Source: Chitinophagaceae bacterium (GTDB lineage: Bacteria; Bacteroidota; Bacteroidia; Chitinophagales; Chitinophagaceae). Taken from it: a DNA stretch of 47,795 nt. The notes below the pieces were generated by a model, which worked only from the letters and a program-made list of their open reading frames with translations, searched no databases and had not been told where the DNA came from. Within the stretch, counting starts at the first letter, position 1. Each line of letters starts with the position of its first letter. Shown piece after piece: positions 45,924-47,795 of the stretch. The position numbers and the translations under genes were made by a program. The stretch spans positions 1 to 47,795 of the forward strand of contig JACSRW010000019.1 of NCBI GenBank assembly GCA_014879565.1. The letters run 5' to 3'.

Positions 45924-47240
45924 TTATTCTTCAGTATTCGTTTTTAAAACTCCCACCGTGCGGTTGGATTTGGTAAAATATTTCCGGGCCACGCGCTGTA
46001 CATCGGCAGCGGTTACTTTATTGTATTGGACCGGTGCATCAAACATTTTGCGATAATCGCCGAAGAACACTTCGTAGGTGCCGATATTGTTCGACTTTCC
46101 GTTGATGGTTTCCACCTGCTCGTAAAATTCCAGCAGCTTCTGGTTTTTTATTTTCTGCAGTTCGGCTTCGCTGATACCGTCTTTTTTGATTTTTTCGATC
46201 TCGGCGTAAATCGCGTTTTCCAGGGTTAATTCCTGTACACCTTCCGAAGCCACCGCGTAAAACTGGAAGAGGGTGGGGTCGAAGCTTTCACTGAAAGCCG
46301 TCACAACATCGGTAGCCAGTTGCTGCTGGTCAACAACCGCCGAATAAAGACGGGAAGATTTACCGCTGCTCAGGATGGAACTGAGAATATTCAGCGCGTA
46401 ATAATCTTCATGTCTGGTTTCCGGGATATGATAGGCAATCATCAGGTAGGGGGTGGCCACTTCTTTTTGCACCAGCACGCGGCGTTCGCCGGTTTGCGGC
46501 GGTTCGGTGATATGCACTTTCGGCGGATCGGGTTGTGCGGGGATAGGTTCCAGGTATTTCTCGGCCAGCTTTTTCACCTCTTCCATCCTGATACCGCCCG
46601 ATACCACCACTACGCAGTTATTGGGGGCATAGTAGGTTTTAAAATACCGTTCCAGGTCGGCCTGTTTCCAGTTTTTCATATCATCCTCATAACCGATAAC
46701 AGGCCAGTGGTAGGGGTGTTCCTGGAAAGCGGCTCCCTGTACGGTTTGTCCCAGCAGGGCCCAAGGGGAGTTTTCCAGGCTGGTGCTGCGTTCGCTGAGT
46801 ACCACGCCTCTTTCACTTTCCACCATTTTCGGGTCAATACTGAGGCTGGCAATCCGGTCGCCTTCCAGGTCAAAGATCACTTCGGCGGCTGAGGCGGGGA
46901 ACCAGTTGGTATACACGGTAACATTTTCCGTAGTATAAGCATTATTGGCGCCGCCGTTGAATTCCATGGTCTGGTCGAATTGTTTAGGGCCATATTTTTT
47001 CGCTCCGTTGAACATCATATGTTCAAAAAAGTGGGAGAGGCCTGTAATGCCCTGGTATTCGTTACGGCTGCCGACCTTGTAGAACAGGTACATATTGGCA
47101 TTGGGAATGGAGAAATCCTCCACTACCAGGAACTTCATCCCGTTTTTCAGGGTGAAGGTCTTGACGTCATCTGCTTTGAGCTGGCCGTTTACCAGGAACG
47201 GCAGCAGCAGGAAGGAAAGGAACAGTTTTTTCATATTCAA
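45924..47240 (-). CDS. M16-family zinc peptidase, catalytic subunit
   Basis: The 438-residue exported protein (signal MNMKKLFLSFLLLPFLVNGQ) carries the inverted zinc motif HFFEH (70-74) in GLSHFFEHMMFNG and the downstream acidic ligand region VLSERSTSLEN. It is a periplasmic clamshell peptidase that degrades peptides enclosed between two halves; here the second half is supplied by the next gene. First gene of the run M16cat-M16partner-rlmH-rhomboid. A weak -7 box (TAGCTTTA, 47253-47260) precedes it. Confidence 0.93.
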   Translation of the reverse strand: MNMKKLFLSFLLLPFLVNGQLKADDVKTFTLKNGMKFLVVEDFSIPNANMYLFYKVGSRNEYQGITGLSHFFEHMMFNGAKKYGPKQFDQTMEFNGGANNAYTTENVTVYTNWFPASAAEVIFDLEGDRIASLSIDPKMVESERGVVLSERSTSLENSPWALLGQTVQGAAFQEHPYHWPVIGYEDDMKNWKQADLERYFKTYYAPNNCVVVVSGGIRMEEVKKLAEKYLEPIPAQPDPPKVHITEPPQTGERRVLVQKEVATPYLMIAYHIPETRHEDYYALNILSSILSSGKSSRLYSAVVDQQQLATDVVTAFSESFDPTLFQFYAVASEGVQELTLENAIYAEIEKIKKDGISEAELQKIKNQKLLEFYEQVETINGKSNNIGTYEVFFGDYRKMFDAPVQYNKVTAADVQRVARKYFTKSNRTVGVLKTNTEE

Positions 47241-47270
47241 TAGTTAGGCGGGTAAAGCTACGGAAAGACG

Positions 47271-47319
47271 GGGAGACATGAGTCGGGAGACGGGAGACAG
47301 GAGACAGTAAACAGTTGGC
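47271..47319. repeat. 7-nt degenerate tandem repeat, about seven units
   Basis: The units GGGAGAC, ATGAGTC, GGGAGAC, GGGAGAC, AGGAGAC, AGTAAAC and AGTTGGC follow in exact 7-nt phase upstream of the M16 operon. Confidence 0.7.
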
Positions 47320-47367
47320 AAGGAGGGTTCTGTGGTGGCAGAAATGTCTCTTAAGTCATGCTTTTCT

Positions 47368-47398
47368 TTTGTTTGAAATATCAAATTCCCTATCTTTG
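47368..47398 (+). promoter_or_regulatory. Strong promoter of the tRNA-like/tRNA-Arg unit
   Basis: TTTG (47368-47371), exactly 19 nt, then TATCTTTG (47391-47398): a perfect match to the Bacteroidota consensus. Transcription should begin near 47404-47406, at the first tRNA-like module. Confidence 0.75.
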
Positions 47399-47404
47399 CC
47401 GCCC

Positions 47405-47480
47405 GTTGGCCCTCTGGCCAACTGAACAGCGCATCCCGGCCACCGCGCCGGGAAGGTTTCAGGAGAAAAGAAAATAAAAA
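47405..47480 (+). ncRNA. tRNA-like two-hairpin module, copy 1
   Basis: It opens with a perfect 7-bp hairpin GTTGGCC-CTCT-GGCCAAC (47405-47422), overlapping AACTGAACAG (47420-47429), a match to the D-arm of the tRNA-Arg below. A hairpin CCCGG-N8-CCGGG (47435-47452) sits where the anticodon arm would be. GGTTTCAGG (47455-47463) is identical to the 5' part of the tRNA T-arm. The 3' half of the T-arm and acceptor is replaced by an A-rich tail. It cannot work as a tRNA. Confidence 0.6.
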
Positions 47481-47558
47481 CTGGCTCCTTAGCTGAACTG
47501 AACAGAGTATCCCGGCCAGCGTGTCGGGAAGGTTTCAGGCGAAGGGAAAATAAAAATA
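47481..47558 (+). ncRNA. tRNA-like two-hairpin module, copy 2
   Basis: The first 30 nt match the start of the tRNA-Arg region (47559-47588) at 25 positions. The central hairpin is CCCGG-N8-TCGGG (47511-47528), where the last pair is G-U in place of G-C in copy 1, so pairing is kept although the bases differ. GGTTTCAGG (47531-47539) and an A-rich tail follow. Motifs are spaced exactly 76 nt from copy 1. Confidence 0.6.
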
Positions 47559-47560
47559 CT

Positions 47561-47634
47561 GGCCCCGTAGCTCAACTGAATAGAGCATTTGACTACGGAT
47601 CAAAAGGTTTCAGGTTTGAATCCTGACGGGGTCA
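47561..47634 (+). tRNA. tRNA-Arg (anticodon ACG)
   Basis: A full cloverleaf: acceptor GGCCCCG/CGGGGTC (one G-U), D-stem GCTC/GAGC, anticodon stem TTTGA/TCAAA with loop CTACGGA (anticodon ACG at 47595-47597), a 5-nt variable loop and T-stem TCAGG/CCTGA with loop TTTGAAT; discriminator A. CCA is not encoded. A34 would be deaminated to inosine by TadA to read CGU, CGC and CGA. The 5' leader consists of two tRNA-like modules. Confidence 0.96.
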
Positions 47635-47635
47635 C

Positions 47636-47665
47636 AAAGGTCTGCCACCAGCAGGCCTTTTTTTG
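47636..47665 (+). terminator. Rho-independent terminator after tRNA-Arg
   Basis: AAAGGTCTGC (47636-47645) pairs with GCAGGCCTTT (47651-47660) through ten pairs including one G-U, with loop CACCA, followed by a T run. It starts 1 nt after the discriminator base. Confidence 0.9.
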
Positions 47666-47667
47666 TA

Positions 47668-47690
47668 GATTTCGAGCGAAGCGAGAAATC
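47668..47690. repeat. Hairpin repeat ATTTCGAGCG-type, copy 1
   Basis: GATTTCGAGCGAAGCGAGAA plus ATC. The ends pair (GATTTC with GAAATC) and the centre GC-GAA-GC can form a small loop flanked by tandem G-A mismatches. It shares its core with the copy at 47718-47746. Similar elements are common between genes in this phylum. Confidence 0.65.
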
Positions 47691-47717
47691 TTACTTTTTC
47701 CCCTCTAAAATTGCCTT

Positions 47718-47746
47718 GTCATTTCGAGCGCAGCGAGAAACCTTAG
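47718..47746. repeat. Hairpin repeat ATTTCGAGCG-type, copy 2
   Basis: This copy, with core ATTTCGAGCGCAGCGAGAAA, differs from copy 1 mainly by A to C in the loop. It is in the same orientation, about 51 nt downstream. Nothing else is supported between here and the window end. Confidence 0.65.
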
Positions 47747-47795
47747 AAAAAATGCCTCTAAACGCTGCTATCCGGCCAAAGGAAAAAGGAACTGT

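Follow-up and report, generated by a model that had tools for sequence, protein, structure and literature searches.

The locus described here lies at one end of contig JACSRW010000019.1 of a Chitinophagaceae bacterium (GCA_014879565.1), the whole 47,795-nucleotide (nt) stretch of which is referred to below as the window. On its forward strand, two tRNA-derived modules precede an intact tRNA-Arg(ACG) gene (47561-47635), identified by ARAGORN and by Rfam (RF00005, 62.5 bits), within a unit that begins with a Bacteroidota-type promoter (TTTG at 47368-47371, a 19-nt spacer and TATCTTTG at 47391-47398) and ends with an intrinsic terminator-like hairpin (47636-47660) plus a T-run, together covering 47636-47665. 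An initial annotation, made from the sequence without database searches, had proposed this order of promoter, modules, tRNA and terminator, which was confirmed by sequence reading, ARAGORN, Rfam and folding.

Alignment to the tRNA revealed the same composition for both modules: a copy of tRNA positions 1 to 26, a hairpin of 7 base pairs (bp) with a 6-nt loop in place of positions 27 to 43, about 10 nt corresponding to positions 44 to 53 (the variable loop and the 5' strand of the T stem) and an A-rich tail. In module 1 (75 nt, 47408-47482), these parts lie at 47408-47433, 47434-47453, 47454-47463 and 47464-47482, the first being a degenerate copy and the hairpin reading TCCCGGC-CACCGC-GCCGGGA; in module 2 (78 nt, 47483-47560), they lie at 47483-47509, 47510-47529, 47530-47539 and 47540-47560, with 21 of 26 positions identical to the intact tRNA and a hairpin reading TCCCGGC-CAGCGT-GTCGGGA. 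At the sixth stem pair, module 1 has G-C where module 2 has G-U, and both D stems are partly broken, that of module 1 more so. The D-arm-like AACTGAACAG and the T-arm-like GGTTTCAGG are common to the modules and the tRNA, supporting the tRNA origin proposed at first. The hairpin had also been said to stand in place of the anticodon arm, and this holds with the extent corrected to exactly positions 27 to 43, the entire arm. Neither module was called as a tRNA by ARAGORN or Rfam, the sole call being the one at 47561-47635, and of seven Rfam matches at E <=10 in the scan of 46000-47795, only RF00005 at the intact tRNA passed its gathering score.

On the plus strand between 47301 and 47700, the promoter is the sole match to TAnnTTTG. 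As no other match lies between it and the tRNA, the modules must be transcribed as the leader of tRNA-Arg(ACG), judging from the sequence, in agreement with what had been annotated. Removal of such leader modules by RNase P is expected. The pattern TCCCG-N4-18-CGGGA occurs at six sites of the window compared to 0.78 expected from shuffling, the module hairpins being two of them. In folding tests, the whole unit gave a z-score of -2.93 and module 1 alone -2.55, with only -0.82 for module 2 alone.

When 34 other genomes of the genus were searched, three (G027, G004 and G012) had one such module directly before tRNA-Arg(ACG), and a further genus mate (G415), found via a covariance-model search, had several modules on both sides of the tRNA. 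Modules were present at 4 of 31 tRNA-Arg(ACG) stretches of the genus, which correspond to 30 distinct places (L019 and L070 are one place taken twice, and L022 and L075 are two places of one genome), and the modules of L003, L004 and L005 match their own tRNA throughout (26/26 nt). Module 1 of the window starts 9 nt past TATCTTTG (with CCGCCCGTT), and in 4 of the 26 module-free genus stretches it is the tRNA itself that starts 9 nt past the promoter, with the same 9 nt in L022 and L075 and with CCGCCCGCT in L010 and L011. Therefore, module 1 probably lies where the tRNA gene once began. TAnnTTTG was located 9-73 nt before the tRNA in the 26 module-free stretches, compared to 128-162 nt in the module-bearing L001, L003 and L004 (L005 has no upstream sequence); the 73-nt case, L013, holds a tRNA remnant with a hairpin in its D stem. 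In a tree of the GroEL gene from 25 genomes, from which G004 and G012 are omitted as they gave no GroEL match, the window's genome falls outside a clade formed by G027, G415 and five module-free species, and two changes are needed. Thus, the patchy presence of modules in the genus is easier to reconcile with insertion and loss than with a conserved RNA.

A survey of 98 tRNA-Arg(ACG) stretches, made by tRNA halves only and blind to the hairpin, revealed hairpin modules in 11 of them, that is, in the 4 of 31 of the genus set and in 7 of 67 of a set from the order, the latter figure being biased upwards by loci picked from the top of a covariance-model match list. All 11 contained at least one copy with a hairpin at positions 27 to 43, with a TCCCG/CGGGA stem in ten and CCCCG/CGGGG in L081, and one copy in L064 was degenerate. 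Not a single opposite-strand match was found in the 98 stretches. Besides the hairpin modules, the survey detected full-length second tRNAs in L026 and L233 and a different hairpin in L254; in L026, two full tRNA-Arg genes with anticodons ACG and TCG stand in tandem (L026:1510-1732). A covariance model built from the five Arg modules was also run over 396 genomes of the order, and its tally is uninformative by itself because the model also matches intact tRNA-Arg, with scores of up to 58.5 bits; its matches were used only where the sequence was read, in at least eight genomes including that of the window. On three contigs (G289:C7, G333:C3 and G361:C1), such matches lie kilobases apart and are probably repeated tRNA-Arg(ACG) genes, L233 (from G361) being two intact copies. 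The genome collections used here overlap (L212 is G027, and L172 is G061).

In L063 and L064, an open reading frame (ORF) inside the array encodes a GIY-YIG protein (PF01541, 53.6 bits for L063). GIY-YIG ORFs were detected in 3 of the 11 module-bearing and in none of the 87 module-free tRNA-Arg(ACG) stretches (Fisher p 0.001; the 87 count the L019/L070 place twice).

To look beyond tRNA-Arg, named genomes, one per species, were scanned with a degenerate pattern consisting of the D-stem end, TCCCG, 8-16 free bases, CGGGA and the variable loop, and at least 118 stretches matched. Among the matches listed, 88 stretches belong to Bacteroidota, 74 of them with a same-strand tRNA within 1.5 kb or a GIY-YIG ORF, compared to none of 6 in Actinomycetota; linked stretches were also found, among the matches listed, in Thermodesulfobacteriota (3/3), Fidelibacterota (3/4), Verrucomicrobiota (1/2), Kiritimatiellota (1/1) and some others. 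The same architecture appears at tRNA genes for Ala, Arg, Met, Thr, Val, Asp and others. Outside Bacteroidota, plugged tRNA copies, that is, copies with the hairpin in place of the arm, were read in L182 and L177 (Desulfobacterales) and in L135 (Verrucomicrobia), beside tRNA-Asp/Val and tRNA-Pro. For the 140 unique modules, a same-strand tRNA lies within 1.5 kb in 100 cases and an opposite-strand one in 3.

The modules are also polar with respect to the tRNA. By identity to the neighbouring tRNA, 60 of the 140 could be classed: those matching its 5' half only all lie upstream (35/35), those matching its 3' half only all lie downstream (22/22) and three match both halves. Among the other 80, 48 have a tRNA or a GIY-YIG ORF nearby and fall below the identity limits or at contig ends; the rest are considered further below. 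In several downstream copies (L113, L115, L138 and L172), homology continues into the 3' flank or terminator of the tRNA, and four loci (L125, L128, L166 and L182) hold tandem runs of three or four copies. The initial annotation had asked if the module always lies before a tRNA gene, and this is so for the 5'-half copies among the 60 classed, not for the mirror 3'-half class.

Covariation in the stem was assayed on 60 of the 75 modules whose free stretch is 8 bases long, namely the linked ones, a set in which some rows are related and the outer five pairs are fixed by the pattern. Across this alignment, the sixth pair takes the forms A-U, C-G or U-A and the seventh U-A, C-G, A-U or G-C, with 46 cells changed on both sides compared to 12.0 (standard deviation 2.8) after shuffling and at most 15 when the partner column was slid. 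The free bases formed on average 2.14 extra Watson-Crick pairs in 108 linked modules (0.42 when shuffled) and 1.53 in 32 unlinked ones (0.44 when shuffled). The outer pairs vary also, with pairing kept, in loci selected by their GIY-YIG protein and not by the hairpin (CTCCG/CGGAG, TTCCG/CGGAA). The paired changes in the stem thus reveal that pairing of the hairpin matters, at the DNA or the RNA level. The conservation of the central stem by paired changes, as first suggested, is therefore strongly backed by the 60 related modules, but not by the five Arg copies alone, for which 184 of 500 shuffles reach the covariation score.

Such data could also be produced by a functional small RNA or a cis-acting leader selected as RNA, for instance a processing or decoy element for tRNA-Arg. 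The co-transcription of the modules with the tRNA, the stem covariation and the folds of module 1, G027 (z -2.15) and G104 (z -4.19), all of which beat shuffles, are in line with this explanation. Nevertheless, selection on the hairpin as DNA would yield the same covariation, modules occur in only 4 of the 31 genus stretches, a mirror class lies downstream of the tRNA, neither loops, D arm nor tail are conserved, and modules are attached to many different tRNAs, all of which makes a selected RNA unlikely.

Also unlikely, and marginally more so, is a decaying tandem tRNA array in which extra tRNA-Arg copies lost the anticodon arm and the 3' half by ordinary mutation. The degenerate D stems of modules 1 and 2, the full tandem tRNA-Arg genes present in the genus (L026), the fold of module 2, little better than shuffles, and the degenerate copies elsewhere, such as that in L064, are all as expected from decay, but decay predicts neither the strict separation of 5'-half and 3'-half copies on the two sides of the tRNA, often at 26/26 identity, nor the exchange of the arm at one boundary for a longer hairpin in unrelated tRNAs, nor the covariation of the unconstrained stem pairs. 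Plain decay and a functional small RNA were the two options offered initially, and neither is supported by the half-specific sides, the downstream copies that end a GIY-YIG ORF and the patchiness in the genus.

At some loci, the GIY-YIG gene itself is joined to tRNA-like copies. A profile from four such proteins matched 50 ORFs in the loci examined (some places being counted twice), of which 23, counted by reading rows, end in TAG with a hairpin immediately after; in most of these 23, the TAG used as stop is that of a tRNA-like D loop. Of the 140 pattern modules, 13 end a GIY-YIG ORF when a strict criterion of position is applied. As none of the 5'-half modules does so, these are tied to GIY-YIG genes by locus only: of the 29 loci holding 5'-half modules, 12 contain such an ORF, and the 3'-half class has one in 6 of its 22 loci. 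The genome of the window contains, at a contig end, a GIY-YIG ORF (G000:C10:76854-77204) that runs into tRNA-Arg(TCT), whose D arm and loop encode its last residues (WSGSSVE) and its stop codon.

The association was also approached from the protein side, by searching one GIY-YIG protein against 198 genomes of the order regardless of tRNA or hairpin; 40 genomes matched and 30 loci were returned, one of which (L291) has no ORF above threshold. A same-strand tRNA call was present in 26 of the 30 (in two of them only undefined '???' calls, which are module-like), an opposite-strand call in none and no tRNA in 3; the tRNAs were those for Val, Arg, Met, Ala, Lys, Gly, Leu, Ile and Pro. By reading, a hairpin was found at the ORF/tRNA junction in 18 of 37 ORFs of these loci, including two in L288 with an ambiguous tRNA context. 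In a tree of 47 GIY-YIG cores, from which the tail encoded by the D arm had been removed, tRNA type groups across host families, with 11 changes compared to a shuffled mean of 26.4 and none of 200 shuffles as low. The tree has weak branches, as it is based on just 76 columns, and its tRNA labels were assigned by hand; the 47 were retained from 77 ORFs after leaving out those that could not be clearly labelled by tRNA, those with a short domain match, duplicates of a core and second copies in a locus. No relative of one GIY-YIG protein was found in plasmid and phage collections at E 1e-8, and three GIY-YIG proteins matched no NCBIfam model.

Scars of a dispersed palindromic repeat family that inserts into tRNA copies, with the GIY-YIG gene as a bystander, would be an improbable source of these structures. 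Some dead tRNA copies (L013, L181, L118, L197 and L216) do contain other perfect hairpins in their D stem or T loop, so that insertion is not limited to the anticodon arm, and a loose hairpin pattern has 63 matches in the window's genome compared to 17 for the reversed control. Against such repeats, GIY-YIG ORFs read straight into D arm and hairpin and are associated with the modules at tRNA-Arg(ACG), and the genome-wide matches listed differ in inner sequence, so no one repeat family is shown. A toxin-antidote system, in which the GIY-YIG protein would cut the tRNA at the anticodon and the plugged halves would be uncleavable decoys, would fit the replacement of just the anticodon arm and the tracking of tRNA type, but it is very improbable given that an RNase activity of this protein would have to be assumed, that half copies would be poor decoys and that the gene is absent from 8 of the 11 module-bearing tRNA-Arg(ACG) stretches.

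The above results suggest that the hairpin-plugged copies at Bacteroidota tRNA genes are a little-known kind of mobile DNA, and we consider it likely, with a probability of about 0.6, that the two modules of the window are upstream remnants of a GIY-YIG-linked mobile element living in tRNA genes. Several observations weigh against this interpretation. No GIY-YIG match was found in the window's contig, which stops 130 nt past the terminator, and of the five GIY-YIG matches in its genome only one reads into a tRNA; another follows tRNA-Ser(GGA) at a distance of about 350 nt, for two more the stretch examined contains no tRNA, and the fifth is 490 aa long. The gene is likewise missing from those 8 of 11 stretches, several of them cut by contig ends, and no 5'-half module ends a GIY-YIG ORF (0/35). 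Moreover, 80 of the 140 modules are unclassed, 32 of them with neither a tRNA nor a GIY-YIG ORF nearby, chance matches included; the trees do not reject that the modules arose once in the genus (approximately unbiased test, p 0.18); the clustering by tRNA type could come from vertical inheritance of the loci; a homing activity of the protein would have to be assumed; and its nearest solved relatives by sequence are UPF0213 proteins (1ywl, 1zg2).

For such an element living in tRNA genes, we infer the following way of cutting, repair, spread and processing. Insertion would replace the anticodon arm (positions 27 to 43) of the outer tRNA half by a hairpin, usually of at least 7 pairs and mostly TCCCG...CGGGA, and would duplicate the missing half, in such a way that one intact tRNA survives. 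An upstream unit would then consist of the 5' half, the hairpin, positions 44 to 53 and a tail, and a downstream unit of a tail or the GIY-YIG gene, the D arm, the hairpin and the 3' half, often with a copy of the terminator. The GIY-YIG nuclease would cut an intact tRNA gene within the region of the anticodon arm; homology-based repair would then copy a neighbouring or incoming unit, an upstream one for the 5' fragment and a downstream one for the 3' fragment. Each event would add one unit and restore the tRNA, giving tandem arrays, and the hairpin copies, being without the target, would not be cut; the hairpin may protect the unit, be recognised by the protein, or both. A cut in the anticodon arm followed by half-templated repair would account for identical tandem copies, for the mirror classes, for the replacement of positions 27 to 43 and for a nuclease gene that ends in a D arm. 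The window would retain two upstream units, module 1 more decayed and module 2 less, without the nuclease gene, and these would be passively transcribed with the tRNA and removed by RNase P. More tentatively, and at somewhat less than even odds, the units may represent undescribed and widespread parasites of tRNA genes, in which each GIY-YIG lineage is aimed at the anticodon arm of one tRNA type, the outer half is plugged with a hairpin selected for structure, non-autonomous units form arrays on both sides and the hairpin is the recognised end of the element. An alternative arrangement with att-like sites, that is, a single element bounded by two hairpins with the tRNA in the middle, was rejected: in the L120 operon the unit on the left belongs to another tRNA than the one on the right, which suggests that the units are independent.

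A full-text literature search, judged mainly from abstract openings, found no description of hairpin-plugged tRNA halves with a GIY-YIG gene. Several known systems are partly similar. Some free-standing homing endonuclease genes adjoin tRNA genes, as is the case for the GIY-YIG enzyme SegB of phage T4, and share with the present units a small GIY-YIG gene beside tRNA genes and an expected spread by cutting and repair, but we know of no hairpin-plugged tRNA halves, reading into a D arm or restored tRNA in such systems. Islands and prophages that integrate into tRNA genes restore the tRNA 3' end, so that an intact tRNA and a partial copy result as here, but to our knowledge they have no duplicated hairpin unit. 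Repetitive extragenic palindromic (REP) hairpin units, often non-autonomous, have a linked nuclease-type gene as well, the RAYTs being HUH enzymes of the IS200/IS605 type, but REPs are not known to be built from tRNA halves. The 178-bp repeats of Escherichia coli tyrT (rtT RNA) contain a tRNA fragment and are transcribed with the tRNA; they differ in having only the tRNA 3' end, located downstream, and no known exchange of the anticodon arm. By sequence, the associated gene belongs with the UPF0213/GIY-YIG proteins (PF01541), from which it differs by a C-terminus encoded by a tRNA D arm.

Group I introns sit at the anticodon-loop position of tRNA genes and self-splice from the precursor, whereas the Bacteroidota units duplicate the tRNA; in the scan of 46000-47795 Rfam reported no ribozyme and no intron family, and tRNA-Arg(ACG) is uninterrupted. 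These introns are mobile DNA residing in tRNA genes, and some of them carry homing endonucleases (PMC3984707). The nearest precedent met is that of Caldiarchaeum, in which a mobile element disrupted a tRNA gene and a 5' fragment of tRNA-Thr lies 1.8 kb upstream of tRNA-Thr with a repeated, recombinase-coding insert between them; it differs in being archaeal, in the intron-containing tRNA and in the DNA recombinase, and a hairpin in place of the arm is not mentioned in the abstract of that paper (PMC3293823).

If this interpretation as a mobile element is true, essential tRNA genes of many Bacteroidota, and sporadically those of other phyla, would harbour a small self-restoring element. Such an element would be easily missed, as the nuclease gene terminates within a tRNA-like copy and the non-coding units resemble tRNA debris or undefined tRNAs; some contig breaks at tRNA genes might be explained, and a natural collection of nucleases with different tRNA genes as targets would become available, together with a specific cut-and-repair model open to testing. 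ARAGORN labels plugged copies of full length either as undefined tRNAs or as tRNA-Pro (L065:994-1228 and L066:1481-1556), and the tRNA counts of genomes with plugged copies may be wrong.

A scan of viral contigs returned seven stretches, six of them without a tRNA call in the stretch examined. The seventh (L302:145-701) shows the full arrangement, with three hairpin-plugged copies, a GIY-YIG ORF and tRNA-Pro, and may be host DNA beside a prophage. Finally, the flanks of the window's unit contain other repeats. Just past the terminator, at 47668-47741, there are two copies of a dispersed-looking repeat similar to TTTCGAGCGAAGCGAGAAATC, which is also found after another GIY-YIG ORF of the same genome (L093), and upstream of the promoter, at 47270-47310, there are short imperfect GGGAGACA repeats.
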